A stretch of 27,886 nt of DNA from a virus. The position numbers and the translations under genes are program-made. This document shows, piece after piece, positions 7,374 to 27,886 of the stretch (positions within the stretch are counted from its first letter, which is position 1; every line of letters starts with the position of its first letter). Below the pieces are notes generated by a model. That model did no database searches. It saw only the letters and a program-made list of their open reading frames with translations, and was not told the origin of the DNA. The stretch lies in IMG/VR virus record IMGVR_UViG_3300012000_000103, positions 1 through 27,886 of that record; one strand, given 5' to 3'.

Positions 7374-7569
7374 GAAAATTGCAATCATGGACGATCACAT
7401 GGATTATCTTAGATCCATGGTAGAACGACTAGAAGATAGAGTACTATCTTTAGAAGAACAATTGCAAAGCGAGTATAGAGAACACCGCGAAATTATCTTC
7501 GAATCCGCTTGGCCAAATTACGAAGATGACGAGAAAGACGACGACGATGATGACGATGATGAAGAGTAA
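7339..7569 (+). CDS. Coiled-coil protein with poly-acidic tail, 76 aa
   Basis: The ATG at 7339 follows AGGAGAACCC, a strong ribosome site. Residues 2-50 form a likely coiled coil (MVERLEDRVLSLEEQLQSEY). The C-terminus is extremely acidic: residues 60-76 are nearly all Asp and Glu, with eight consecutive Asp. Acidic tails of this kind are seen in DNA mimics and in proteins that bind basic partners; the role here is unknown. It is the last gene of the rightward operon, and its 3' end overlaps the 3' end of the leftward rhomboid gene by 77 bases on the opposite strand. Confidence 0.7.
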   Translation: MTQKEKLEIIIKKIAIMDDHMDYLRSMVERLEDRVLSLEEQLQSEYREHREIIFESAWPNYEDDEKDDDDDDDDEE

Positions 7570-8083
7570 ATAACACTCCTCCCACTAAGCCACCAAAATG
7601 GGCAGCATAAGCTATACCCATAGGAAAAATTAAAGATATCATTGCCAATTGCAATTGACTAAATAAGTAGAAAGCTAATAGGCATCTTGCTGCCAACCTA
7701 ACCGGCTTTGGCCCATCATACATAGAAAGGGCTGCCCCTACTAGCCCAAAGATAGCACCACTACTGCCGATTAAACCCAATGATTTAAAAGCGGAAAGAT
7801 AGTTAAAAGCTGCCTGAAATATAAAGGCACAGGCACCCAGTGCAAAAAACAAACGAACAAACTTTTTAGTGCTTTTAAGCTTATATTCTAAATACAGCAT
7901 AAAAGGAGCACCAAAAATATAGTTGCCAAATAGATGACCCCAGCTACCATGACTTACCATATGTGTAAAAAACGTTACAAAACGCCACATATATGATGGT
8001 TCGCCATGAATATAAGCAGTTACTGTAGGATCAAAGAATAATAAGGATAGTACACCAACTAAAAATAAAGCAATTGAGGCCAT
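7493..8083 (-). CDS. Rhomboid-family intramembrane serine protease, 196 aa
   Basis: Polytopic membrane protein with the hallmarks of rhomboids. With the ATG at 8083 as start, the second membrane segment carries His41, His45, His50 and Asn54; the 4-5-4 spacing equals that of E. coli GlpG His141, His145, His150 and Asn154. GSSGAIFG contains the GxSG motif with the catalytic Ser at 108, and AHFGGLVGG carries the catalytic His162 in the last helix. Six hydrophobic segments are discernible, matching the basic six-helix core. Rhomboids cut membrane-spanning helices. The C-terminus is very basic (RHHRRRLSRH). The start overlaps the stop of the holin-like gene (TAATG) and follows GGGG; a TTG at 8095 is an in-frame alternative. 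It ends the lysis cassette. Family assignment is strong; substrate unknown. Confidence 0.88.
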   Translation of the reverse strand: MASIALFLVGVLSLLFFDPTVTAYIHGEPSYMWRFVTFFTHMVSHGSWGHLFGNYIFGAPFMLYLEYKLKSTKKFVRLFFALGACAFIFQAAFNYLSAFKSLGLIGSSGAIFGLVGAALSMYDGPKPVRLAARCLLAFYLFSQLQLAMISLIFPMGIAYAAHFGGLVGGVLFTLHHRHHRRRLSRHLRNLAKRIRR

Positions 8084-8304
8084 TAGATACCCCAATGCTT
8101 TAGAGCAAAGCTAACAACTAGGGATGCAACGGTCGCAACACCTGCGACCTTTACTTTTAGTTTATTTACCTCTGTCTTAACTTGTGTGAGATCCTCTTTG
8201 ATCTCTTTAAATTGTTGGTCTGTTTCTAATGCATGTGCTTTACTAAGAGCTTCAAGCACAGCTAGACGCTTGTCTATTTTATGAAGCAATTCTTCAGCTT
8301 TCAT
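8083..8304 (-). CDS. XhlA-like small membrane protein, probable holin component, 73 aa
   Basis: The N-terminal 50 residues form a charged coiled coil (LLHKIDKRLAVLEALSK through LTQVKTEVNKLK), followed by one C-terminal membrane segment (VAGVATVASLVVSFAL) ending HWGI. This layout is that of XhlA/haemolysin-like phage proteins that work with holins in lysis. The ATG at 8304 follows AAGGA by 5 bases. It overlaps the end of the 54-residue gene and its stop overlaps the rhomboid start (TAATG), so all three should be co-translated. A holin role is inferred from topology and position next to the GH73 enzyme. Confidence 0.7.
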   Translation of the reverse strand: MKAEELLHKIDKRLAVLEALSKAHALETDQQFKEIKEDLTQVKTEVNKLKVKVAGVATVASLVVSFALKHWGI

Positions 8305-8458
8305 CTTTATCCTTCTTTCTTAAAAATCTCATAGGTAAATCCAAAAAGTCTAGGATGAGATCGTCCCATTTCCAAGGCGTATACCTTGCAATGACTTTGA
8401 GTGCGCCAATGATTGTAAATAAGGCGCTAATAATATCTAAAAAATCTTGAAAGTTCAT
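8294..8458 (-). CDS. Small holin-like membrane protein, 54 aa
   Basis: A short gene filling the gap between the glucosaminidase and the XhlA-like gene. The ATG at 8458-8456 overlaps the glucosaminidase stop as ATGA, and the TGA at 8296-8294 lies inside the next gene. The protein starts MNFQDFLDIISALFTIIGA, a hydrophobic membrane segment, followed by IARYTPWKWDD and a basic tail (RFLRKKDKDES). A single membrane helix followed by a TP...DD stretch is familiar from small phage holin-like proteins. No strong ribosome site is visible, so expression probably depends on coupling. Together with the 73-residue protein it would form the membrane part of the lysis system. Confidence 0.7.
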   Translation of the reverse strand: MNFQDFLDIISALFTIIGALKVIARYTPWKWDDLILDFLDLPMRFLRKKDKDES

Positions 8459-9027
8459 TTTAATCTTTTTTCTACGCTTTGTTTAAAGGCTTGTAGTTTT
8501 TGTTTATACTTTGAATCTGTAGCATAACCACCTGCTACCATGCCATCTACATAATCTGAATAAGTATTGGCTTCTTTTGCTTTTTTATACCTGTCAAGTT
8601 GAAACAATTCTTGCATTCTATTTTTATAATCTTCCGCATTTTTTAAAGAAACAAACTTGGCTTTTACTTTTTTTATTTTGCCATTTTCTTCTTCTGTTGT
8701 TATTGCTATTTTGTAGTCTTCTCCAGGTCTTGCTTTAGTACCACCAAAATTATAAGGTGCTGCTAGTCTTGTACCCCATGCAGACTCTAGAGCTTTTTGT
8801 GCTACAAACGCCTTTGCTGCCTCTGGGCTTAAACCTAAATTTACTCCCATTTCATACATATCCTGTGTAAATTTTGACCTACCTTCTTCTGTTTTAGCAT
8901 ATGGAGAAAGTGAATTTATTTGCTTTTCAGGTACTAAATCGGTAGGTATAGCTTGTTGCTGTTGTGGTTGTCGTTGTATAACTTGTTGTTTTGTTGACCA
9001 CATATATGGTGGTAAATCTGCTGCCAT
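8455..9027 (-). CDS. GH73-type N-acetylglucosaminidase (endolysin or virion lysozyme), 190 aa
   Basis: Peptidoglycan hydrolase of the FlgJ/AtlA-like glucosaminidase family. Residues 75-97 carry the signature around VAQKALESAWGTRLA with catalytic Glu81, then YNFGGTKA; FVSLKNAEDYKNRM and GGYATD (near 166-171) followed by YKQKL are the usual later landmarks. It cleaves the glycan backbone of the host cell wall. There is no signal peptide. The Gln-rich N-terminus (residues 14-26) resembles the internal virion proteins just upstream, so it might also be packaged. The ATG follows AGGGG by 6 bases and sits 1 base after the large virion protein's stop. It is followed by two holin-like genes and the rhomboid, forming a lysis cassette. 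Confidence 0.85.
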   Translation of the reverse strand: MAADLPPYMWSTKQQVIQRQPQQQQAIPTDLVPEKQINSLSPYAKTEEGRSKFTQDMYEMGVNLGLSPEAAKAFVAQKALESAWGTRLAAPYNFGGTKARPGEDYKIAITTEEENGKIKKVKAKFVSLKNAEDYKNRMQELFQLDRYKKAKEANTYSDYVDGMVAGGYATDSKYKQKLQAFKQSVEKRLK

Positions 9028-9028
9028 A

Positions 9029-11794
9029 CTATTCCCCTTTCATAAACTCGTAAAACTTCTTGTATTTTGATTCACTTGAGTTTGGAAATACATCAGCTTT
9101 TTTATACATTAGTTCAATAGCTTTGTCAATATCTAATTCAATACCATCTTCAGTAGTTAATTTAATAAGACCTTTAGGGATAGGCGTTAATGTTTTTAAT
9201 GGATCTTTGGCAATAATAAATGGTGTTGCTGTTATACCGCGAGAAACAAGATCTATAACACTTTCTGCTGGTAAAGTACCACTAGGTAATGATTTATCAG
9301 TAAAGGCGTCAAAAACAGCTAACACCGATAATGGATAAACAATTTGTTTTGCAAGGTATAAAGGTTTTCCTTCTGCGACAGCTTCAGCATTTCTTGCTAA
9401 AATATTTCTTGCATAAGTAGTAAAAGGAAATAATTTACCTATAGTGCTTCTAAGAAGTTCTGGCTTGTCTGCTACACTGTATGTAAAATTAACTCGCTGT
9501 GTAATTAACAAAGCATAGACATCTCTTGCATTTTCTACACCACCAGAAATAAAAGCCCTACTCACCATTTCTCTTTGAGCTGTTGTAAGAGCAGACTCAT
9601 TTAATAGAGAATTTATAGCTTGTTGACCACCACGATTCCAATAAGCTTCAAATTTATTCTGTGCTCCTAATATAGTTTGAAGTCGGTTACCAGATTCTCC
9701 AGCACCCATAGTTTTTTTTGCTACCCACGCTTGCGGTGCATTTATAAAATCTATAGCTTTTGCAATTTTGCTTTTAGGGGCCTTTGTAAATTGTTCTTCT
9801 AAGTTAGCTGTGTCTTTAATTAAGGAAGCTTGCAAAATCTTTTTTGCCTGTTTCATTCTTTCTTTACCAAGACCTAAAATACCCTTAGCCATGTCTTTAG
9901 CACCGCTTGCCCACCATGTAGGTCCAAGTTCTATGCTGCCAAATAAAGGGGCTTGTAACAATTGATTAAACCAAGTTTTAGGATTAACCCCTACGGTATT
10001 ATTATACATTGCTCTTGAGGCTGCATCGGAGATTTCGGTTGCTACAGTGTCTGCTTCTGGAACAACACGAACAAATTGATCAATTAAAGGTTTAATTTGC
10101 TGTGTTTTATAAGTACCAAATAGTTGCGATGCAGTTTTTTGAGAATCAATATTAAGAACGTCCGCTAAATATCTATTAAAAGCATCTGCCTCATTCGTCA
10201 ATCCAGAAAGTTTAAGCTGGTTTAATATATCCACACCCCCCTCTAAAGCAGGACCAATAAACTTTTGACGACTTGCTTCAGCAACGTACCGTTGCATAAC
10301 ATTAGCAAAGTCTGTTTCGTGTACAGCGGGGTTAAATAAACCAGATTTTCTGGCTTGAGCAAGAGCAGGGTATTTATTAGCTTGTACAGAGGTTTTTGTT
10401 GAGATATTTTCTAAAGTTGGTAATTCTCTAATAGGTATATAGCCGGGAAGTTTGGGTAATTTTAAATCATCAGCAACAGAGTCTAAATAAACTCGTACAT
10501 TTTTTAATGCATTTTCTTGTTGCATTGTAAATCTTTTTGTTGTTTCAGGAATCATCACTTTACCCGGAATTGGAACGGGTTTTGGATTAAATATAATAGA
10601 ACCATCAGGTTGAGTTATAAAATATTGTAAATCTTGTAACATTGTTTTAGGATCAACACCGGAATCTATAGCTTGTTTATAAAGAGAACTTAAAATTTTT
10701 CTTTGATCCTGCCTGTAATTTGCAGCTTTGGTTTTTACATTTACCAATTCTTGGGCCATTTCACCAGTACCAACGCCAGTACGTTTTTGAACTTGACTCC
10801 ACCTAAAAATTTCACCTAAAATATCATATTTACTAATTTTTTTAGTTTCAGGAAAAATACCATTAGCATTTAAAACTTCATTAAAAACTGCTTGCCTAAT
10901 CCCGTCGGCATTATTATTTTTTATAACACCTTTTTCTACTAAAGTATCAACAAATTTAGACGTAGTTAAAGCTTTATCATAAATATCTGCTGGGGTATTT
11001 CTAACACCAAAAGTGCGTTCAATATTAACGCGGTCTGCAACAGGTATTGCAATATTATCTATTGCTGATTTTATTTGTGTTTGCTTTGTTACTATATCTT
11101 CTAATTTTGTAGCTAATTCTTCTGTAGGTCTTTCAGCGGCATTAGCTCGTTCTATAAGCTTAAGAAGATTAAGTCTTCTTTTTTCTAATTTGTCGAATGT
11201 TTTACCAAGTTCTTGCCCAATAACTTTGCTTGGTTTTAACGCCATCTTTTCTAATACCGGGACATATTCAGAGGGGTTTAAAGCTGTAACTGGTGGTTTT
11301 AAAGCTGTTTGTGGTTGCAACACTGCGGCTTCTGGCGCAAAAGAACCTGCTGCTATTTGAACACCAGTTTCTGAAAGATTTTGTGGTTCAAAAGTCAAAG
11401 TTTCTGCTAATGGTTTTGGCATTGCTGCTAAAGCACTTTCAGCCAAAGTTGGTTGAGTAATACCCATTTGCTTTAACTGTTGCACTACTGGTATTTGTTG
11501 TTCAAATTGGGTTTGGGCTTGTAATAACTGAGAAGGGATTGCTAAAGTACCAGACAAAAAAGCTTGATTAAACCGTTCTGATTGCTGCTTTAAAGCTTCA
11601 TTTCCTGAAGGCAATTTAACTTGCTCAGGAGATGGTAATTCCATAGACACTGGTATAGAAGTTGGGATTTGTTGTGCTGGAGCTAAAGATTCTAATTGTT
11701 CTAATTCTTTTTGTTCACTTGGAGACAAACCTGTACTACTTCCAAGAGATTCTAGTTGTTTTAATTCCAATTCTTCTTGTGGAGTCAACGGCAT
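9029..11794 (-). CDS. Large internal virion protein, 921 aa
   Basis: A very large protein placed, like T7 gp16-type core proteins, at the end of the virion gene series and just before lysis. The N-terminus has two copies of a short motif, roughly LxPxExxELxQLESL, at 3-17 and 23-37. Residues 20-130 are Pro/Gln-rich and probably disordered; 190-400 are helical. The C-terminal third has a conserved-looking region (SGNRLQTILGAQNKFEAYWN; GKLFPFTTYARNILAR) of a kind seen in large phage virion proteins that line the DNA or are ejected, then hydrophobic stretches (YPLSVLAVFDAF; ITATPFIIA). No lysozyme or protease motif is visible. Assignment as an ejected or core protein is inference from size, position and composition. 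Confidence 0.7.
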   Translation of the reverse strand: MPLTPQEELELKQLESLGSSTGLSPSEQKELEQLESLAPAQQIPTSIPVSMELPSPEQVKLPSGNEALKQQSERFNQAFLSGTLAIPSQLLQAQTQFEQQIPVVQQLKQMGITQPTLAESALAAMPKPLAETLTFEPQNLSETGVQIAAGSFAPEAAVLQPQTALKPPVTALNPSEYVPVLEKMALKPSKVIGQELGKTFDKLEKRRLNLLKLIERANAAERPTEELATKLEDIVTKQTQIKSAIDNIAIPVADRVNIERTFGVRNTPADIYDKALTTSKFVDTLVEKGVIKNNNADGIRQAVFNEVLNANGIFPETKKISKYDILGEIFRWSQVQKRTGVGTGEMAQELVNVKTKAANYRQDQRKILSSLYKQAIDSGVDPKTMLQDLQYFITQPDGSIIFNPKPVPIPGKVMIPETTKRFTMQQENALKNVRVYLDSVADDLKLPKLPGYIPIRELPTLENISTKTSVQANKYPALAQARKSGLFNPAVHETDFANVMQRYVAEASRQKFIGPALEGGVDILNQLKLSGLTNEADAFNRYLADVLNIDSQKTASQLFGTYKTQQIKPLIDQFVRVVPEADTVATEISDAASRAMYNNTVGVNPKTWFNQLLQAPLFGSIELGPTWWASGAKDMAKGILGLGKERMKQAKKILQASLIKDTANLEEQFTKAPKSKIAKAIDFINAPQAWVAKKTMGAGESGNRLQTILGAQNKFEAYWNRGGQQAINSLLNESALTTAQREMVSRAFISGGVENARDVYALLITQRVNFTYSVADKPELLRSTIGKLFPFTTYARNILARNAEAVAEGKPLYLAKQIVYPLSVLAVFDAFTDKSLPSGTLPAESVIDLVSRGITATPFIIAKDPLKTLTPIPKGLIKLTTEDGIELDIDKAIELMYKKADVFPNSSESKYKKFYEFMKGE

Positions 11795-11796
11795 AG

Positions 11797-12852
11797 TTAT
11801 CTACCTTGTTTGCGTCTCAATTCTTGTAATCGTGCTTCTTGTTCAGGCGTTCTTAATTGGGGTGTTTGTAACCCGTATTGTTTTTCTTGTTGCGCGTGTA
11901 ATTTTTGTGCATAACTATCTGCTTCTTGTTGCGTATTAAAAATACCTAAATGCTGTCCTGTTTTTTTATAATATTGAATCGCTTCTTCAGGTTCCATTAT
12001 TTTACCCTCTTGGCTTACAGTTGGAATTAATACTTGTTTTCCATTTTCTTCAAAAGACATAGATCTTACTGTAGAAATAGAACCATCTGCATTTCTAACA
12101 ATTGGTCGAGTATTTAGATTAATATTTCCTGAAATATTTTCTTGTTGCACCTGAACTCTTGGCTGTTGCACTACTAATTTTTTAGATTTAAAAAAACCCG
12201 GATCTTCAATAAACGTTTGTCTTGCACTTTTTGTAAATGATTTTAATGCGTCGCTAGATAATTCTGGATATAAACTAGAAACTTGTTTGTCAAAACCATC
12301 GGCAGTTAATTTTCCCTGATTTTGAAGATCCCTAATTCTAGCAAACCGATCATTTTGTTGTAGAAAATTTGAGGCAGCAGCAATATCTCCAGCTTTAAGA
12401 AGGGCGTCAAATTGCTCATATTCTCTAGGGGATAAAAATTGTCCAGCTTTTTGAAGTCTACCAATACCTGCTGCGATGTTTAATTTGCGCTGATTGTCTT
12501 CTTTAATCTTTTCTTTTGCCAAATTTAGTCTTTGCTCAGCAATTTGCAATTGTCTGTCTTGTCTTTGTTCTCCTCGTGCTTGTCTTTCTCTGGTTAAACC
12601 TAAAGATTGTAAATAGGCATTTTGAGTTTCCTCTTGCATTTGCAATCTTCTTTCAGATTGTTGTCTTCTAACAGCTTCTTGTTGAGCCTGTTGTTCCAAT
12701 CTTTGCTGTTCTAGCTGTCGCTCTTGCATTTGTTGAGAAAACTGTGTTAATGGTTGACCTAATCCCGGCCTATTTACAGCGATACCTGTAACATTACCGC
12801 CAAGACCTAAAATTGCCGGTATTAATGTGCTTGCGTTATCTTGTCCACCCAT
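11797..12852 (-). CDS. Internal virion-like protein with Gln-rich coiled coil and a recurrent phage C-terminal module, 351 aa
   Basis: Residues 38-125 form a long Gln/Glu/Arg-rich coiled coil ([20 protein letters not shown]). Residues about 241-326 form a module with [51 protein letters not shown] and [16 protein letters not shown] recall this module as recurring in many unrelated phage virion and large proteins, without a known function. It starts after AGGTGA and the next gene begins 2 bases after its stop. Position between two other Q-rich proteins suggests an internal head or ejection protein. Confidence 0.65.
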
Positions 12853-12859
12853 ATATCAC

Positions 12860-13423
12860 CTAATATTTAGTTTGTTGTTGTGTTCCAGTTAATTGTAAAG
12901 CCTGACCAACAGAGCCAAGTAAAGCTTTTTGAGCTTCAAGAGGAGCTGCTCTAAGACCCAATTGCTGAATAAGTGCTTGATTACCAGCTTGTTGTGCTTG
13001 CAATCTAGCTTGATTTTGCAATTGCTCTCTTTGCTGTTGCTGTTGAAAAGCTTGAAATAGCACAGGATTAGCTTGCAGTCTAGATTGCATATCAATTTGC
13101 CGTTGCAAAGCCATGTTAGCTCCCGGCTGCCCCCTAAATTGCTGTGCAATAGCTGCTCTTTGAGCTGCTGCTTGCTGCGCCATTTGTTGAGTAGCTTGGG
13201 ATGCAAGACCTCTAGTCATTACATCCGGTCTAGTAGAAAATTGAGGAGTAAATCCGGTTTGCAATTGTTGTGCAGCTTGTTCTGCTGCACTTCTATAACC
13301 ACCCACACCACCGACTCCGCCAGCAATTTGAGATTGATAATCTGTTAAATACCCCTTATACATTTGTAGTAATTGGGGATCTAATATATTTTTTTGTTCT
13401 GTTACTTCTGGTCCGCCACCCAT
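12860..13423 (-). CDS. Gln/Ala-rich internal virion-like protein, 187 aa
   Basis: Low-complexity helical protein, extremely rich in Gln and Ala (QQMAQQAAAQRAAIAQQ; QAFQQQQQREQLQNQARLQ), with a Gly/Val turn near 34-42 (GGVGGVGGY). No enzyme motif. Such Q-rich helical proteins are common among ejection proteins of short-tailed phages, and this one lies between the Gly-rich protein and the larger coiled-coil protein. Function is inferred only from composition and position. Confidence 0.65.
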   Translation of the reverse strand: MGGGPEVTEQKNILDPQLLQMYKGYLTDYQSQIAGGVGGVGGYRSAAEQAAQQLQTGFTPQFSTRPDVMTRGLASQATQQMAQQAAAQRAAIAQQFRGQPGANMALQRQIDMQSRLQANPVLFQAFQQQQQREQLQNQARLQAQQAGNQALIQQLGLRAAPLEAQKALLGSVGQALQLTGTQQQTKY

Positions 13424-13433
13424 AAATTCTCCT

Positions 13434-14093
13434 TTATCCTTGCGATAATTGTGATAGTTGTTGCATTAAATCTCCACCTTGACCGCTAAAAATAGCAGGC
13501 ATTGGCGCTATTTGAGACGGAGGTGATGGAGGGGTTTGAGCTATGTTTGCTGCAAGATTTGCAGCAGAACTTGTAGCATTAATATAATCTGCTGTAGTCC
13601 AACCTTTACCCTTGGTTGTCGGTTGCTGTTCTACAGCTAAAGCCTGTTCATTTGTCATTTGCCATGGTTCCGGTTTTAAATTAGCAGGTGTAAATTGTTG
13701 TTCTACACTACCCTGCATATTTGGTGGCAACGCATAAGAAGGCATTCCAGCAGGTACTGGCATAGCCGTTTTATTTAAAGTAGCCATTAAATTAGGTTGT
13801 GTTTCTGGGATATTTTGTACAGAAACTTGTTGGCTTGCTAAGTTAGGTGCAATTGCTCCATCAGTAGGCGGAGTTGTAATTGCATCTGCAGCAGCATTAG
13901 CACTTGAACCTCCGATAGCTCCACCGCCGGCACCTAAACCAGAAGCTAAACCACCACTCACAGCTCCACCGGCAGCTCCTATACCTGCCCCTTTTGCAAT
14001 ATCCCCAAAACTACCCCCCTTAGCCGCAGCGACACCACCACCAGTGACAGCGCCTGCAACCATAGGTATCCAGATTGCCTCTAATCCAGTCAT
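13434..14093 (-). CDS. Gly-rich, glycine-zipper internal virion-like protein, 219 aa
   Basis: The N-terminal 70 residues are almost all Gly, Ala and Ser (VAGAVTGGGVAAAKGG; GAGIGAAGGAVSGGLASG), a glycine-zipper pattern that often inserts in or crosses membranes. The remaining part is Pro/Gln-rich and disordered, ending MQQLSQLSQG. I place the start at the ATG at 14093, which overlaps the acetyltransferase stop as ATGA and has GGGAG 7 bases upstream; an ATG at 14099 is too close to that site. A membrane-penetrating role at DNA ejection is plausible but inferred. Confidence 0.65.
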   Translation of the reverse strand: MTGLEAIWIPMVAGAVTGGGVAAAKGGSFGDIAKGAGIGAAGGAVSGGLASGLGAGGGAIGGSSANAAADAITTPPTDGAIAPNLASQQVSVQNIPETQPNLMATLNKTAMPVPAGMPSYALPPNMQGSVEQQFTPANLKPEPWQMTNEQALAVEQQPTTKGKGWTTADYINATSSAANLAANIAQTPPSPPSQIAPMPAIFSGQGGDLMQQLSQLSQG

Positions 14094-14614
14094 ATCCATT
14101 CTCCCTTAAGCTGTGTAAAAAGCCACTCATCGTGCATTTTACCATTCCAATAGACGTTGTTTCTTAAAAGCCCGTCTAGTTTAAAACCATTTAAAGCAAG
14201 TATTCTTTTAATCTCTTTTCGATGGGTAAGCACTCGTATAAAAATCTTTTCTAGGTTTAGGTAGTTAAAAACATAGTCTTTTACAAGTTCACCAGATTCA
14301 AATATTACCTTAACTTTGTTTGGACAATCTTTTTCCATCAAAATGCCGTATTCAATTTGTTTGTTATGTTGATCATAGTTAGCAAAACCAACCATACCTA
14401 CAATTTCATCTTCTACTCTTACAAAGAAAGATGCGCTGTGCATGTGTGCAACGGCAGCATCATCGCCCCAAGTAAATTCAGGGGCATATCTTCTAAAGTA
14501 TTCTGCGTAATATGGATCTCGTGACCACTCACGTATTTTATGGACATTATCAATAGAGATTGCCATTAGAGATACTGTAGGTTTATGCTCAATTTTAATT
14601 TGTTGTAAGTGCAT
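14090..14614 (-). CDS. GNAT-family N-acetyltransferase (second copy), 174 aa
   Basis: RimJ/RimL-type GNAT fold: an N-terminal strand and helix with IREWSRDPYYAEYFRR, a central strand (IVGMVGFANYD) and C-terminal motifs (IRVLTHRKEIKRILALNGF; LDGLLRNNVYWNGKMHDEWL) typical of this family. These enzymes transfer acetyl from acetyl-CoA to an amine. It is a paralogue of the preceding gene: the starts match (MHL..., then EW..DP....YFRR) and the ends match (DE-L at the last strand). It ends naturally at LKGEWI. It lies between fibre and internal virion genes, so it is expressed late; the substrate may be a virion, host or small-molecule amine. Confidence 0.8.
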   Translation of the reverse strand: MHLQQIKIEHKPTVSLMAISIDNVHKIREWSRDPYYAEYFRRYAPEFTWGDDAAVAHMHSASFFVRVEDEIVGMVGFANYDQHNKQIEYGILMEKDCPNKVKVIFESGELVKDYVFNYLNLEKIFIRVLTHRKEIKRILALNGFKLDGLLRNNVYWNGKMHDEWLFTQLKGEWI

Positions 14615-14624
14615 TTGAGTTTAC

Positions 14625-15218
14625 TCAGTATTTTATAATATAATTTAAAGCTATATTTGCAGGTCGGGTTTCTGTATCCCCTGAAAGCGATACAGAAGCG
14701 GAATCAGATAATTGATAATTACTTAATATTGTAGCATCAGCAGCCCAGTATTCCCTCCTAAGTAGTGAGTATAAACACTCATCAACTAATTTGCCCCGAT
14801 ATAAACATGATTTTTTTAAAGTACCTTCATGCTCATAACCAGCGGCTTCTAAGTTTTGTTTTAAACCATCGCGATGCGATAGTATTATGCAAAATATTTT
14901 ATTACAACCAAGTTTATCAAAAAGAATGCTTTTGACAACTTCATTAACTTTAGTAGAATCTCCACGATCTTTTTTAGCTAAAAGAACACCCCATTTAGCC
15001 GTCCTACTTAAATGATCTTCTATGCCCATGCTAAGAAGACCTATTGCACTACCATTTTTCATTACTATATATTTATCACCCATTTGTTGCATAAACTTAG
15101 ATGGTTCTGCCCAGTCACACAATGGTGGTGTACGTCTAAAATATTCGTCTAGATTTGGGTCTTGTGCCCATTCTATAACCATATTAAAGTCTTCAATTGT
15201 AACTGGACGTAAATGCAT
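14625..15218 (-). CDS. GNAT-family acetyltransferase (first copy) with grafted fibre C-terminus, 197 aa
   Basis: Residues 1-158 are a GNAT domain (VIEWAQDPNLDEYFRR; KWGVLL; IILSHRDGLKQNLEAAGYEH; YRGKLVDECLYSLLRREYW). Residues 159-197 are not part of it: they end SGDTETRPANIALNYIIKY, the kind of sequence that closes phage tail-collar fibres, and the adjacent fibre ends in the same NYIIKY. Compared with its paralogue, which stops at the end of the GNAT domain, this copy has 39 extra residues. The start is 1 base after the fibre stop and has no ribosome site, so translation probably depends on coupling. The domain call is firm; the origin of the tail by duplication is inference. Confidence 0.8.
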   Translation of the reverse strand: MHLRPVTIEDFNMVIEWAQDPNLDEYFRRTPPLCDWAEPSKFMQQMGDKYIVMKNGSAIGLLSMGIEDHLSRTAKWGVLLAKKDRGDSTKVNEVVKSILFDKLGCNKIFCIILSHRDGLKQNLEAAGYEHEGTLKKSCLYRGKLVDECLYSLLRREYWAADATILSNYQLSDSASVSLSGDTETRPANIALNYIIKY

Positions 15219-15219
15219 T

Positions 15220-16284
15220 TTAATATTTAATGATATAATTTACGACCAATGAAGGTTGAGTATTGCTATGCGCTTGTCCGTCCCCAGTATTAGCTGTATA
15301 TACCCACGGACTTCCTGGTACTGGATAAGTGTTTGTAGCTTCATGTCCACGGCTATGATTTATTCCATCTGTACCATAAGCATTATAATAACTACCAGAT
15401 GCAGCCCTTTCTAAAGTATCTGTTAAATGTTGATGGCTTGGAATTTGGTTTGTTGTTAGCGTTACAGTTTCACTACCGCCAGTAGAACCTACTGTATTTG
15501 TAGCAACAACGGCACCGGCAGGAACAGATCCGCCAGCACCCATCGGCACCCTTCTTCTCATGTCAGGCAATCTAAAATTTCCTATAGCTTCTCCACCAGT
15601 ATTAAAAGATGAACCTACAATAGAATATAAATTTGAATATGTTGATTGAGAAACTTCTTGACCTTGACAAAGCAACCAGCCAAAAGGTGCAATCGACCCA
15701 GCAAACATTACCATAGATCCAATAGGATTTCCTAAATTCTGCCATTGAATACTGTTTTTTACTTCTACTGTTTGTGTTGTGCTATTATATATTACTGAAC
15801 CTTCTTCTGGAGAAACTATAGCATCTCGTTGTATTGTAGTTTGTACTGGGAGTTTAATTCTTGTACTGTATACAAGAGTAGTATCCCCTAAAAGATTTAA
15901 ACTTGTTTTGGTTAGTTTTAAAGTATCAGTAGCACCATGTAAAACGTGAATTGCAGGGATGGTAGCTCCAGAAGCAAGAACCATTTTAAGTTCTGCAGCT
16001 CCAGACGCCGTTTGTGTTTGACTATCAGTAATTAGAATAGAAGCCTTACCTGCCCCTAGTAAGGCTCCCTGAGTTATTTTGATAGATTCATCATTACCGT
16101 TATTTTGAATAACAATCGCATTTCCATTGGCAATCGTAAAAGCTAGATCACCCGTAAATGTTGTCATGTTATCTTGATCTAATCCTGTAGACCAAGAAAC
16201 AATTTGAGCAAAGTTAGCATTAACTTCGCTTGCTAAAGCAGGCGTTCCTGCTACAAATGTATTAGGTATCGTTAAAACTGCCAT
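15220..16284 (-). CDS. Tail fibre with collar domain, 354 aa
   Basis: The N-terminus (IPNTFVAGTPALASEVNANF) is of the type that begins many phage fibre proteins. A phage tail-collar domain spans about 188-250 (MVMFAGSIAPFGWLLCQGQE and FRLPDMRRRVPMGAGG). The C-terminus contains HQH and His-rich turns and ends SLVVNYIIKY, typical of collar fibres. The protein likely forms a trimeric receptor-contacting fibre or tail tip. It starts after AGAGG by 6 bases. The next gene, an acetyltransferase, starts 1 base after its stop. Confidence 0.85.
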   Translation of the reverse strand: MAVLTIPNTFVAGTPALASEVNANFAQIVSWSTGLDQDNMTTFTGDLAFTIANGNAIVIQNNGNDESIKITQGALLGAGKASILITDSQTQTASGAAELKMVLASGATIPAIHVLHGATDTLKLTKTSLNLLGDTTLVYSTRIKLPVQTTIQRDAIVSPEEGSVIYNSTTQTVEVKNSIQWQNLGNPIGSMVMFAGSIAPFGWLLCQGQEVSQSTYSNLYSIVGSSFNTGGEAIGNFRLPDMRRRVPMGAGGSVPAGAVVATNTVGSTGGSETVTLTTNQIPSHQHLTDTLERAASGSYYNAYGTDGINHSRGHEATNTYPVPGSPWVYTANTGDGQAHSNTQPSLVVNYIIKY

Positions 16285-16296
16285 ATGGACCTCTTA

Positions 16297-16671
16297 TTAG
16301 GGCTGGCGATTTAAAAACCAGAATTGTGCGGTAGCTGCTGTAGCTGGCGCAGTGTTACCTGTTCTTGTGGTAGTTACTGCAACAACACAACCATTGCCTA
16401 AAAACTTATAAGACATTTCATCCGCATCTTTACCAAAAGCACTGCTTCCGGGGATACGAACAGTAAATGCCGGAGAAGTGGTTCCTACAGTTACAGAAGC
16501 AGCACTTGCTGCGTCAAAAACTTGTAAGAAAATGTCCGATGCTGTATTGTTTTCAACTAAGAAACCATAAAGGTTTCCTCGTCCTACGAAAACTTCTAAA
16601 GCACTGGCACTTAGGTTATTTGTATATAAATGAAATGGAGCACAACTTGAACTGCTTGTGGGTGAACTCAT
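16297..16671 (-). CDS. Small beta-rich virion protein, 124 aa, unknown
   Basis: Starts after AAGGATAAACCA. The sequence is a run of beta strands rich in Ala, Thr, Ser and Val (ALEVFVGRGNLYGFLVEN; FLQVFDAASAASVTVG; GCVVAVTTTRTGNTAP), ending FWFLNRQP, with almost no helix. This suggests a beta-sandwich such as a decoration, fibre-adaptor or tail-attachment protein. It lies between the nozzle-like protein and the collar fibre, so a tail role is likely. No family is recognised. Confidence 0.65.
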   Translation of the reverse strand: MSSPTSSSSCAPFHLYTNNLSASALEVFVGRGNLYGFLVENNTASDIFLQVFDAASAASVTVGTTSPAFTVRIPGSSAFGKDADEMSYKFLGNGCVVAVTTTRTGNTAPATAATAQFWFLNRQP

Positions 16672-16685
16672 TGGTTTATCCTTTC

Positions 16686-18740
16686 CTAAATACCAGAGAA
16701 AATGCTACCTGATACACCCCAACCGAGGAGTGTTAAGGGGGCATCTGCCTCTGTTTGTTTAAAAACTAATTGCATGGTTTTGGCTTTTCTATGTGGGTCA
16801 TAAACTAATTCGGATAGTCTTGGACCATTCCAAATTAAATCTGGAGATGCCGCAACAGCAGGTGCTGTTGGATATAGTGGATTTAATGGATTTGCATTAT
16901 AGATATCTACCTCATCTTGCGTAAATGTCCAACTATAATCATTCCACGTAGTGCCAACACCAAATATTTTAAAATCTTCACAAAATTCTTCTTCAGAACC
17001 TAAATCATAAATAGAACAAAATTCAAATTCGTAAGTATCATCCGCTGCTTCAGCGAATATGCGTGCATTTTTATATAACTTTTGCACCATTGGTTGACCA
17101 AACATGTAAGGTCTAGAAACCAATTTCATGTATATAGGATCACCATCATCATTTGTGCCAGTATTCATTTTATAATACTGCCCATTAAGACTGGTGTTTC
17201 CAAAATAAATATCTAAGCCACCACTTGCAGTAGCTTCCGTTTGAAAAAAACAACCTGCTTTAAGGCCCGGATGTGTAACATTGCTAATACCTTCGCCATA
17301 AGTTGTCCATCTAAATTCTGGATATTGCTGATAATCACCAACTAAAGTTAAGTTGGGTTCTGCGGCATTTGTATCTTCAAAAACTTGTATATAAATTCTT
17401 CGATTTTTAGTATCATTAATGGCGCTTAATTTATAAGATTTGGTACCACTAAAGTCGCAATTTCTAATTGTCTCTTGAATTGCTTTTGCAATAGGTCTTA
17501 CATTTTGCCCATCAGTAGCATAGACATTATCTCTACCTAAAAAGATTAGTTCGTCAAATACTTGAGTTTGAGCATAGTGTGATACCGCACCAATATGTTC
17601 AGATATTTCTCGGTAAATATAAGTTACAGGGTCTTCATTTCTACCTAAGTCTGGTAGACCTACTTCTTCTAATCTACCAACTGAACGTTCTTTTAGAACA
17701 ATTGGGATACCTTTAATTTGACCGGCCCCTACCACAGCATCCGCAGCTCCGAATTGCCCCTCAACTGAGAATTCGTTTACCACAGGAAAACTCTCTGGTA
17801 AAGGCCCGTTAAACCCGATCTTAGAAAATCTCCCTCTATTCATAGAAGGATGGAATACTAAAAGTCTGTTTCTCGCGATAACTGGAAATCTTGCTTCATC
17901 ATAATCTGTGTATTCTGTAAGTCTTGTGTTATCTAAAGACATTTGTTCAGATTGTAAAGAGTAATCAGATATATTTGATGCGTATGAAGTTAAATTAGCT
18001 TCAATCTCATCTTCTAAAAACAAAACATTACCATTAACAAACGTTCTAAAAATTCTTATTTTTTTGTCTAAGTGAGACAAATTAGCATCCCCATACGTAG
18101 GTAAATCAGTTAATGTTAAATTAATTGTTTTATTTACTGCTGTTGTGTCAATTGTTGCCGATAATTCAGAAGGACTGCTTTCAGCTACTAAAATATTATT
18201 ATAATAAAAGGCATATGTGTAAGCATAAACATATTGTCCTTCTTCAAGATCGCCGCCTGCAGCGGCAGACCCTGTTGGAGGGGCAGAGGGGGGATCAATG
18301 CCCATATCTCTCGTTGCAGACTGGGCTTCATAAACTTGTGGTATTAGTACCTTGCCACCGTCAAACACAAAAAGACTATCACTTAATTGTGCAAAAGAAG
18401 GTCTACCATTAAAACCAAAGCCGCTTTTAACAGAAACAAGACTGCCTGCTACTATTTTACCTAAATAGGCTGCTGTAGAATTGTTTGTAGCATATAATAA
18501 AGTTTGGGCAGTTCCATTACTTAATTTAAATTCAATACCTTGACGAATATTATAACCTGTTGCCGGCGTATCTAAAGCTTCCACAAAACCGCTGCGTTTT
18601 ACATAACCACCGGTAGAACCAATGTTAATGTTAAGAGCTTCGCGTACGTATCCCGGAGCCATTAAATTTTCAGGCGAAGTGGTATCTAAACCCTTTGCAT
18701 CTGAATATTCTAATTCTGATACGTAATTCTTAGTACCCAT
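16686..18740 (-). CDS. Tail nozzle-like / tail tubular B-like protein, 684 aa
   Basis: A large beta-rich protein in the position of T7 gp12 or P22 gp10, directly after the adaptor gene. It has an N-terminal head-tail joining segment (NLMAPGYVREALNINIG), repeated beta blades (YGDANLSHLDKKIRIFRTF; RNRLLVFHPSMNRGRFSK), and KGIPIVLKERSVGRLEEVG with LIFLGRDNVYATDG, resembling propeller-containing nozzle proteins. The hexameric protein would form the distal tube of a short tail. The ATG overlaps the preceding stop by one base (TAATG). The exact family is not certain; size, order and fold pattern support it. Confidence 0.7.
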   Translation of the reverse strand: MGTKNYVSELEYSDAKGLDTTSPENLMAPGYVREALNINIGSTGGYVKRSGFVEALDTPATGYNIRQGIEFKLSNGTAQTLLYATNNSTAAYLGKIVAGSLVSVKSGFGFNGRPSFAQLSDSLFVFDGGKVLIPQVYEAQSATRDMGIDPPSAPPTGSAAAGGDLEEGQYVYAYTYAFYYNNILVAESSPSELSATIDTTAVNKTINLTLTDLPTYGDANLSHLDKKIRIFRTFVNGNVLFLEDEIEANLTSYASNISDYSLQSEQMSLDNTRLTEYTDYDEARFPVIARNRLLVFHPSMNRGRFSKIGFNGPLPESFPVVNEFSVEGQFGAADAVVGAGQIKGIPIVLKERSVGRLEEVGLPDLGRNEDPVTYIYREISEHIGAVSHYAQTQVFDELIFLGRDNVYATDGQNVRPIAKAIQETIRNCDFSGTKSYKLSAINDTKNRRIYIQVFEDTNAAEPNLTLVGDYQQYPEFRWTTYGEGISNVTHPGLKAGCFFQTEATASGGLDIYFGNTSLNGQYYKMNTGTNDDGDPIYMKLVSRPYMFGQPMVQKLYKNARIFAEAADDTYEFEFCSIYDLGSEEEFCEDFKIFGVGTTWNDYSWTFTQDEVDIYNANPLNPLYPTAPAVAASPDLIWNGPRLSELVYDPHRKAKTMQLVFKQTEADAPLTLLGWGVSGSIFSGI

Positions 18741-25819: not shown

Positions 25820-27886
25820 TTATATAATGAACCAGTGTGTTCCGTTAGAAACAAGCATTACCGATTCGTAAGGCATTACAACTTTATAATCAGATTGCCC
25901 ATCAATCTGTTGACCAGACTGAGGTAGAATTTGAATATATTTAGATTGTGATGCAGCTCCTGACTGTTCTTTAATAATAAACACTTTTCCAGCGCCCATT
26001 ACTGAAGCACTTGGAAGTGTCATTACGCGAGATACAGAAAGGTCAGAAACAGCAATAATATAATCACTTTCAACAATAGTATAATCTACTGCTTTTGTGG
26101 AATATGCTACTTTTTGTCCTCTAAGCATTCTAACTTCATTACCAACAATTTCCATTGGTGTTTGAAAAGAAGAAGTACCATTTGGTATAACACTAAATCT
26201 TAATTTACTACCTCTATTAGTAGTACTTAAAGCTTCATTGCTTACGCCTGCAATTGATACTATTGGTGATGCGACGCTGTTAGTACTTAAACCACCGCCA
26301 AAAGAAATTACACCCATAATAGTTTCTGCTGCAAGGGCAGAATACGTACTTGTAGTCGGGTTGTAACCATATCTGCCAAGAACTATAGAAGGATTACCAG
26401 TAAAGTTAGTAAGATTTAAACCAGTACCACTCATAGATCCATATGATGTCGTTTGCGCTGCAGGAGAAGCATTAGAATATCCTAATAAAATATTTGATTT
26501 AACGTTTATTTGATTAGGTCTGTTTGCTGTACTATTACCAATGTTAAAGGTTTCAGCAGAAAATAAGAAGTTACCTTCTAAATTTCTACTTCCATCTTTT
26601 TTAAACAATGTTAAATCTTCAGCAGATCTAGCACTTGCTTCAGCACTAACTTGACTATCGACATAGGTTGTATCTGGAATTAATACGTTATTAACGTATA
26701 AATTCTGAAACATATCGACTCTATTGCCTGCAAAAGAAGCTACCACTGTTCTACTTGTAGAACCGTTGGCAGTTGCCTCTATGTTTAGCTTACTTCCACG
26801 AGCTGATGATGTATGGCCCTCAGTTGCAATACCACTTAATTTAACGGAAGAGGTATACCCAGTTCCATTATATGGCTGAAAATTCATTGCCCCGATAATG
26901 CCATTTAAAGTAGGCACACTCGTAGCTCTTAAAGCCATTTGTGAATTTGCAGGCAAATCAATATTTAATTGACCTGTCATTGAATTTGAACCATCAAGTT
27001 TTAATCGAAGAGCATCTGCAGCGTTAACATAGCTCTTTGTTACTGGATCAGCTTCAAGAACATCTAAACGTCCATCAAGAAGACCTTCGGCAGCAAGTGC
27101 TCTAGATTCTTCTGCGTTAACGTCAGATTGTCTATCGCTAACTTCTTGTGCTAATGCAGCATTATTACTAAGAACATATGAAGCAAATGCATTATCATTA
27201 GCAGTGTCAACGCTGTTAATTAACTGTACGATTTCTGCAAACGAATCTTTATCAGCTTGCGAAGCAGAAAGTATAGCATCAATACGCCCTTTTTCAGTAG
27301 AGACTTGACCTTGTAAATTGCTAACTTCTCCGTCAACGTAAGTCTTGGTGACTGGGTCTTGTTCTAAAATATCAAGACGTCCATCAAGAGCAGCTTCTGC
27401 AGACATTGCTCTTTGTTCTTCAGATTCAACAATACCGTCTGCGTATTCTTTTGCGTCCTTTTCGGCTTTAGCAATAGATCCTTCAATGTTATCTGCGCCT
27501 TCAATAATATCAAGTCTACCATCTAGTGCAGACTCAGCAGACATAGCACGCTGTTCTTCAGCATCTACATCAGCTTGGCGATCGCTAATTTCTTGCGTAA
27601 TCTGTCCTTGTAGGTCAGATACTTCGCCATCTACGTATGTTTTGGTAACTGGGTCAGACTCTAATACGTCTAGTCTAGAATCTAATGCAGATTGAATACC
27701 ATCTACATATGCTTTGGTTGTAGGGTCTTGTTCTAGTACATCAATGCGACCATCTAATAAACCTTCTGCTGCAAGAGCACGAGACTCTTCAGCATTTACA
27801 TCTGACTGACGATCAGAAATTTCTTGGGTGATCTGCCCTTGCAAATCAGAAACTTCTCCGTCAACATATGCTTTGGTTACCGGATG
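25820..27886 (-). CDS. Long coiled-coil tail fibre (partial, 5' end beyond window)
   Basis: The frame is open to the right-hand window edge, so the protein is longer than the 688 residues visible. The visible N-terminal third consists of repeats of coiled-coil modules such as DRQSDVNAEESRALAAEG, LLDGR-DVLE-DP-TK and YVDGEVSDLQGQI. The middle third is beta-rich shaft. The C-terminus (DYTIVESDYIIAVS; PSASVMGAGKVFIIKEQSGA; GQQIDGQSDYKVVMP; LVSNGTHWFII) has the pattern that closes many trimeric phage fibres, with a receptor-binding tip. It is the first late gene visible in transcription order, followed by a hairpin and the terminase. A second fibre with a collar domain lies at 15220-16284. Confidence 0.85.
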   Translation of the reverse strand, partial: HPVTKAYVDGEVSDLQGQITQEISDRQSDVNAEESRALAAEGLLDGRIDVLEQDPTTKAYVDGIQSALDSRLDVLESDPVTKTYVDGEVSDLQGQITQEISDRQADVDAEEQRAMSAESALDGRLDIIEGADNIEGSIAKAEKDAKEYADGIVESEEQRAMSAEAALDGRLDILEQDPVTKTYVDGEVSNLQGQVSTEKGRIDAILSASQADKDSFAEIVQLINSVDTANDNAFASYVLSNNAALAQEVSDRQSDVNAEESRALAAEGLLDGRLDVLEADPVTKSYVNAADALRLKLDGSNSMTGQLNIDLPANSQMALRATSVPTLNGIIGAMNFQPYNGTGYTSSVKLSGIATEGHTSSARGSKLNIEATANGSTSRTVVASFAGNRVDMFQNLYVNNVLIPDTTYVDSQVSAEASARSAEDLTLFKKDGSRNLEGNFLFSAETFNIGNSTANRPNQINVKSNILLGYSNASPAAQTTSYGSMSGTGLNLTNFTGNPSIVLGRYGYNPTTSTYSALAAETIMGVISFGGGLSTNSVASPIVSIAGVSNEALSTTNRGSKLRFSVIPNGTSSFQTPMEIVGNEVRMLRGQKVAYSTKAVDYTIVESDYIIAVSDLSVSRVMTLPSASVMGAGKVFIIKEQSGAASQSKYIQILPQSGQQIDGQSDYKVVMPYESVMLVSNGTHWFII
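27010..27886 (-). repeat. Degenerate coiled-coil repeats in the long fibre
   Basis: At least three to four imperfect repeats of about 35-45 residues, each with E-V/I-SDRQ, (A)EE-RA, L(L/A)-DGRLD-LE and DP-TK-YV. Copies at 27746-27814 and 27068-27136 encode the same 23 amino acids, while DNA identity is much lower because 16 of the 23 codons differ. Another pair carries EEQRAMSAE followed by SALDGRLD or AALDGRLD. The tandem units would form a trimeric coiled-coil shaft and probably arose by internal duplication. Confidence 0.75.

Follow-up and report, generated by a model that had tools for sequence, protein, structure and literature searches.

GNAT1, a predicted GNAT-fold protein encoded directly behind a collar fibre in an uncultured podovirus-like virus, is very likely the product of a composite gene, in which one mosaic crossover joined a fibre and its GNAT gene (fibre B and GNAT1) to the end of another fibre and a second GNAT gene (fibre A and GNAT2). 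The comparisons show that a foreign fibre end forms the tail of GNAT1, that GNAT1 exists without this tail, and that similarity to the relatives of the left-hand side collapses at this place; from them we infer a single event, accompanied by a swap of the receptor-binding tip.

The window (the whole stretch of DNA analysed here) is the viral record of 27,886 bases. Among named phages its terminase has only distant relatives (best 36%). The minus strand carries, in order, a tail tubular B-like protein, a 124-aa protein, the collar fibre, GNAT1 and GNAT2, and after GNAT2 come small Ala/Gly/Gln-rich and internal-virion-like proteins. A phage-encoded rhomboid-family protease (window 7493-8095; PF01694, E=4e-17) adjoins this structural arm. 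Among the related phages compared below, L018 is a record of L002, L027 a record of L003 and L060 a record of L036. The features are:

9029-14099, minus strand: right-hand arm (p221, gp14-like p187, p351 and gp16-like p921), belonging with GNAT2
14090-14614, minus strand: GNAT2, a divergent second GNAT, starting 10 nt past the GNAT1 stop (PF13302, E=1e-7)
14625-14746, minus strand: probable grafted C-terminus of fibre A, GNAT1 residues ~158-197 (SVSLSGDTETRPANIALNYIIKY) plus the stop (phrog_523, phrog_6459, L005 fibre end)
14723-14763, minus strand: interval holding the probable recombination junction (the L018 DNA match ends at 14763; the fibre-family match begins at residue 166, position 14723)
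14747-15218, minus strand: GNAT1 core, about residues 1-157, predicted SpeG/RimL-like GNAT fold (phrog_1249, PF13302)
15220-16284, minus strand: resident collar-domain tail fibre (fibre B), ending QPSLVVNYIIKY-stop
16297-18740, minus strand: left-hand arm adjoining the fibre (p124 and tail tubular B-like), 85% and 80-83% identical to L002/L018

The two parts of GNAT1

The GNAT1 reading frame (14625-15218, minus strand; 197 aa) starts MHLRP 1 base after the fibre B stop and ends in SVSLSGDTETRPANIALNYIIKY-stop. A preliminary description of this DNA had placed NYIIKY-stop at the end of fibre B, the MHL start of GNAT1 1 base later and the MHL start of GNAT2 10 bases past GNAT1, and the reading frames agree exactly. 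Two kinds of family match divide the protein without overlap: residues 1-157 match the acetyltransferase family phrog_1249, and residues 166-197 match the tail-collar/fibre families phrog_523 (E=1.3e-5) and phrog_6459 (E=3e-4). The PF13302 score is 24.9 bits against a cut-off of 25.4. In the structure model, pLDDT is about 80-90 at residues 1-150 and below 50 at residues 162-197, where the tail is predicted to be disordered. The best Foldseek matches are to SpeG polyamine acetyltransferases (E=1e-11, TM 0.67-0.80), and as modelled the core is a GNAT superfamily fold of the SpeG/RimL type. The extension of 39 residues described earlier is present and fibre-like by its PHROG matches; its length is better given as about 36-40 residues, ending SGDTETRPANIALNYIIKY, with the natural end of the GNAT near residue 157 and an exact start that is uncertain by a few codons.

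The acetyl-CoA pyrophosphate-binding signature of GNATs, Q/R-x-x-G-x-G/A, lies between beta4 and alpha3. In the alignment this site reads K83-D-R-G-D-S in GNAT1 and R-E-S-G-D-S in L002; GNAT2, L005 and L029 lack its glycine. Since the signature is only roughly kept in GNAT1 and lost in the latter three, catalysis is uncertain, and acetyltransferase activity may vary or have been lost across GNAT1, GNAT2 and their relatives.

A fibre end on a GNAT

The tail carries the motif TETRPAN. A search of viral contigs with degenerate DNA for TETRPAN[I/V/M] gave 82 places, and the motif was in frame at 74 of these. In 53 of the 74 the distance from the first T to the stop is exactly 16 codons, which is also the spacing in the GNAT1 tail. 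A tail-collar fibre C-terminus would be TETRPAN, then 9 residues and a stop, on a protein that also contains a collar domain. GNAT1 lacks that domain and yet ends in the terminal motif with the exact 16-codon spacing; it is the only GNAT with TETRPAN among the 82 matches. Judged from these sequences, the tail is the C-terminal end that tail-collar fibres generally have and no chance match: it appears as a fibre remnant on a protein that is not itself a fibre.

The remnant resembles one kind of fibre end more than another. The L005 fibre truly ends SVSLTGDTETRPANISLAFIIKC, a near match to the GNAT1 tail, and the last 72 nt of the two are 68% identical as DNA (random, 26%). Against the end of fibre B, right-aligned at the stops, identity is 81% over the last 21 nt and 70% over the last 30 nt; it falls to 39-43% over 60-120 nt and is near background upstream. 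The residues upstream of NYIIKY also differ in type (SGDTETRPANIAL versus AHSNTQPSLVV). The tail evidently derives from a different fibre-tip allele than fibre B, one like that in L005.

GNAT2 and the site behind the fibre in related phages

GNAT2 has 174 aa, starts MHLQQ, ends KGEWI and matches PF13302 above the cut-off. It is 28-29% identical to GNAT1 and 23-31% identical to all other family members, and a search of viral contigs for its relatives found none beyond the same phage. Its start, MHLQQIKIE (window 14575-14614), resembles the MHLRPVTIE of GNAT1, and the alignment sets the true first strand of GNAT2 13 residues after that start; MHLQQIKIE is possibly another remnant at a GNAT start.

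For GNAT1, a search of GTDB genomes found no relatives, and INPHARED gave only two weak matches (21-26%). The preliminary description had suggested looking for relatives with a single, tail-less GNAT, and these exist. L002 and L003, the closest relatives, each carry GNAT1 in single copy, at 86% and 82% identity, stopping after residues 156-158 and lying directly behind fibres that end QPSLVVNYIIKY and QPYLVFNYIIKY. Tail-less GNATs also follow fibres in L005, after an intervening 109-aa ORF (L005 4670-4999); in L029 and L030, where the fibre ends TGTETRPANIAIAYIIKT; and in L050, where the GNAT has 170 aa and a GNAT2-like N-terminal extension. No GNAT accompanies the NYIIKY fibre of L026, whose backbone is 84% identical to that of L027, which has one. 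By these comparisons what follows the fibre varies between phages, from different GNAT alleles to no GNAT.

Six phages have a collar fibre and a GNAT, two a collar without a GNAT (L026, L034) and two neither (L020, L025); the counts are too few for significance, and a strict link between GNAT and collar tip was rejected. A GNAT of the same family also lies away from the fibre (record G005, L060 1716-2228), so the link is not strict and the family is mobile within these genomes. That GNAT adjoins a 128-aa protein and terminase-small-subunit-like genes.

A selected functional fusion, in which the tail would dock GNAT1 on the collar or fibre or package it in the virion, is improbable. It would suit an open, intact frame that is kept in two records of the phage, a fibre end (ETRPxN..Y.IK) that is highly conserved in fibres, and the annotation of certain phage GNAT-fold proteins as virion proteins. 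However, of the collar C-domain the tail keeps no more than the last segment, for which disorder is predicted, no other GNAT among the 82 motif matches has one, and the tail-less relatives show that the protein can do without it; moreover, the two records are effectively one population, from which selection is not measurable. The earlier suggestion that the tail attaches the enzyme to the virion, though possible, has gained no positive support. In a specific form, the grafted end would insert into or cap the collar C-domain of the fibre trimer and make GNAT1 a virion-borne, fibre-attached protein. This is quite improbable; if true, an accidental tip swap would have created a new tail-associated enzyme.

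The junction

Compared with L018, the window changes character abruptly. On the left, identity is 83% in tubular B, 85% in p124, 84% in the N-terminal part of the fibre, 63% in the fibre tip and 86% through the end of GNAT1. On the right it drops to 29% in GNAT2, 48% in the gp14-like protein and 40% in p921, and p221 and p351 have no match in this phage, which is otherwise 83-86% identical left of the junction. In the gp14-like gene L018 is itself 73%, 69% and 65% identical to L027, L026 and L029, with tubular B at only 62%; because L018 stays close to these more distant phages there, the right-side divergence belongs to the window. Divergence makes the exact position of the break hard to place.

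Fibre B has a Collar domain (PF07484, E=1.5e-18) and a Gp10_C domain (PF21939), and its N-terminal part is 84-86% identical to L002/L004. A second fibre lies at 25820-27844, and its C-terminal half (residues 346-674) is 98-99% identical to the L026 fibre; tubular B of L026 is only 59-63% identical to that of the window. The tip of the second fibre marks a recent exchange between distant members of the group; tip swapping therefore occurs elsewhere in it too, which favours the mosaic reading.

The junction is found in two records. L039, another IMG/VR record of this phage, matches window 9867 to 15910 at every position, junction included; this supports the junction without proving it, as both records may come from related samples. 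The records differ at 8455-9050, a glucosaminidase-like lysin region (PF01832) and variable site, and are otherwise near-identical. The second record (L001 3767-4999) also lacks window 15911-18195, so that residues 1-182 of tubular B are fused in frame to mid-fibre in a 410-aa ORF, and nine SNPs are clustered beside this gap at 18198-18315; the loss could be a true deletion in a variant or an artefact of chimeric assembly.

The same question arises for the junction at 14.7 kb, which might join two co-occurring phages in silico. The deletion and SNP cluster in L039 form a suspicious junction and show that assembly of this population is imperfect, but the 14.7 kb junction is identical in both records and precisely in frame, with all genes intact, and a chimera is very unlikely here. 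Least probable is a tandem duplication of the last ~39 fibre codons plus the GNAT within one genome, which we reject on protein and DNA identity as strongly disfavoured: although fibre end and GNAT do follow each other twice in a row, with both ends NYIIKY and both GNATs starting MHL, GNAT1 resembles GNAT2 far less than it resembles outside homologues (82-86% in L003/L002), the fibre ends are alike only in the last 21-30 nt and differ in type upstream, the nearest GNAT1 relatives are single-copy and the right-hand arm is foreign too. The preliminary description had read both the repeated pattern and the fibre nature of the tail rightly; of its two explanations, duplicated or acquired twice, duplication falls and acquisition twice comes closest to the two-lineage mosaic favoured here.

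A possible route to the composite gene

Under the favoured mosaic, two phages belonging to one group would have recombined within the ~40-bp interval, by a crossover that was non-homologous or micro-homologous. The left parent would have carried fibre tip B followed by GNAT1, the arrangement of present-day L002, and the right parent fibre tip A ending SVSLSGDTETRPANIALNYIIKY, followed by GNAT2 and its own internal-virion genes. A break in the last GNAT1 codons and about 35-40 codons before the fibre A stop, in frame, would have deprived GNAT1 of its own stop and given it that of fibre A. The right parent, with an intact fibre A end before GNAT2, was sought in viral contigs with GNAT2 alone, p921 alone and as an alignment, a gp14-like alignment and the exact 17-residue tail as degenerate DNA; only the same phage was found, and the gp14-like alignment brought up L050. 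The right half of the two-parent model is therefore what we infer. Two or more successive events, for example insertion of tip B plus GNAT1 and then deletion of the remaining fibre A, would leave an identical pattern.

GNAT1 most likely still functions through its core, as an exchangeable SpeG/RimL-like protein among late structural genes, and the tail, since it is predicted to be disordered, is taken as a passive leftover. More speculatively, the in-frame join was perhaps kept for translational coupling: because the fibre A stop lies 10 nt before the GNAT2 start, the fusion keeps that stop-to-start spacing.

The locus offers a clear example of phages swapping receptor-binding tips: another gene preserves, in unusually legible form, how the lost fibre ended, so that both the type of tip replaced and the break point can be deduced. 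When phages of this uncultured group have a gene behind the fibre, it is often a GNAT, with variation both in its alleles and in whether it occurs at all; its presence in L027 and absence from the 84% related L026 raise the question of what a GNAT-fold protein does beside a receptor-binding tip.

Comparison with known systems

The composite gene itself is new; its kind, a legible recombination scar, is already known. In Alteromonas phages A5 and V22, tail-fibre tips are exchanged modularly together with an adjacent gene, as fibre plus chaperone (PMC10579305). Here too a variable unit, made up of the fibre tip and its following gene, is exchangeable between otherwise different phages, but the adjacent gene is GNAT-fold and no chaperone, and a fused reading frame resulted. 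Composite (mosaic) viral genes have precedent (PMC4202312), and GNAT1 likewise appears to be built by recombination from segments of two gene families; unlike those, it is a single fusion that looks accidental and has as its second part a remnant of only ~40 residues.

GNATs are also known from this neighbourhood. In cobaviruses a GNAT lies near the tail and internal-virion genes (SIO1 pc40), and a correspondence with T7 gp13 has been suggested (PMC6775973). T7 gp13 (PF11090, phrog_308) occupies the same place in structural gene order, between gp12 and gp14, as GNAT1 and GNAT2; neither of these matches PF11090 or phrog_308, T7 gp13 itself matches both, and homology to it is not supported by any family match. 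Like the SIO1 protein, GNAT1 belongs to phrog_1249 and lies between tail tubular B and internal virion proteins, but the SIO1 annotation has no collar fibre in that interval and the sequence similarity is remote.
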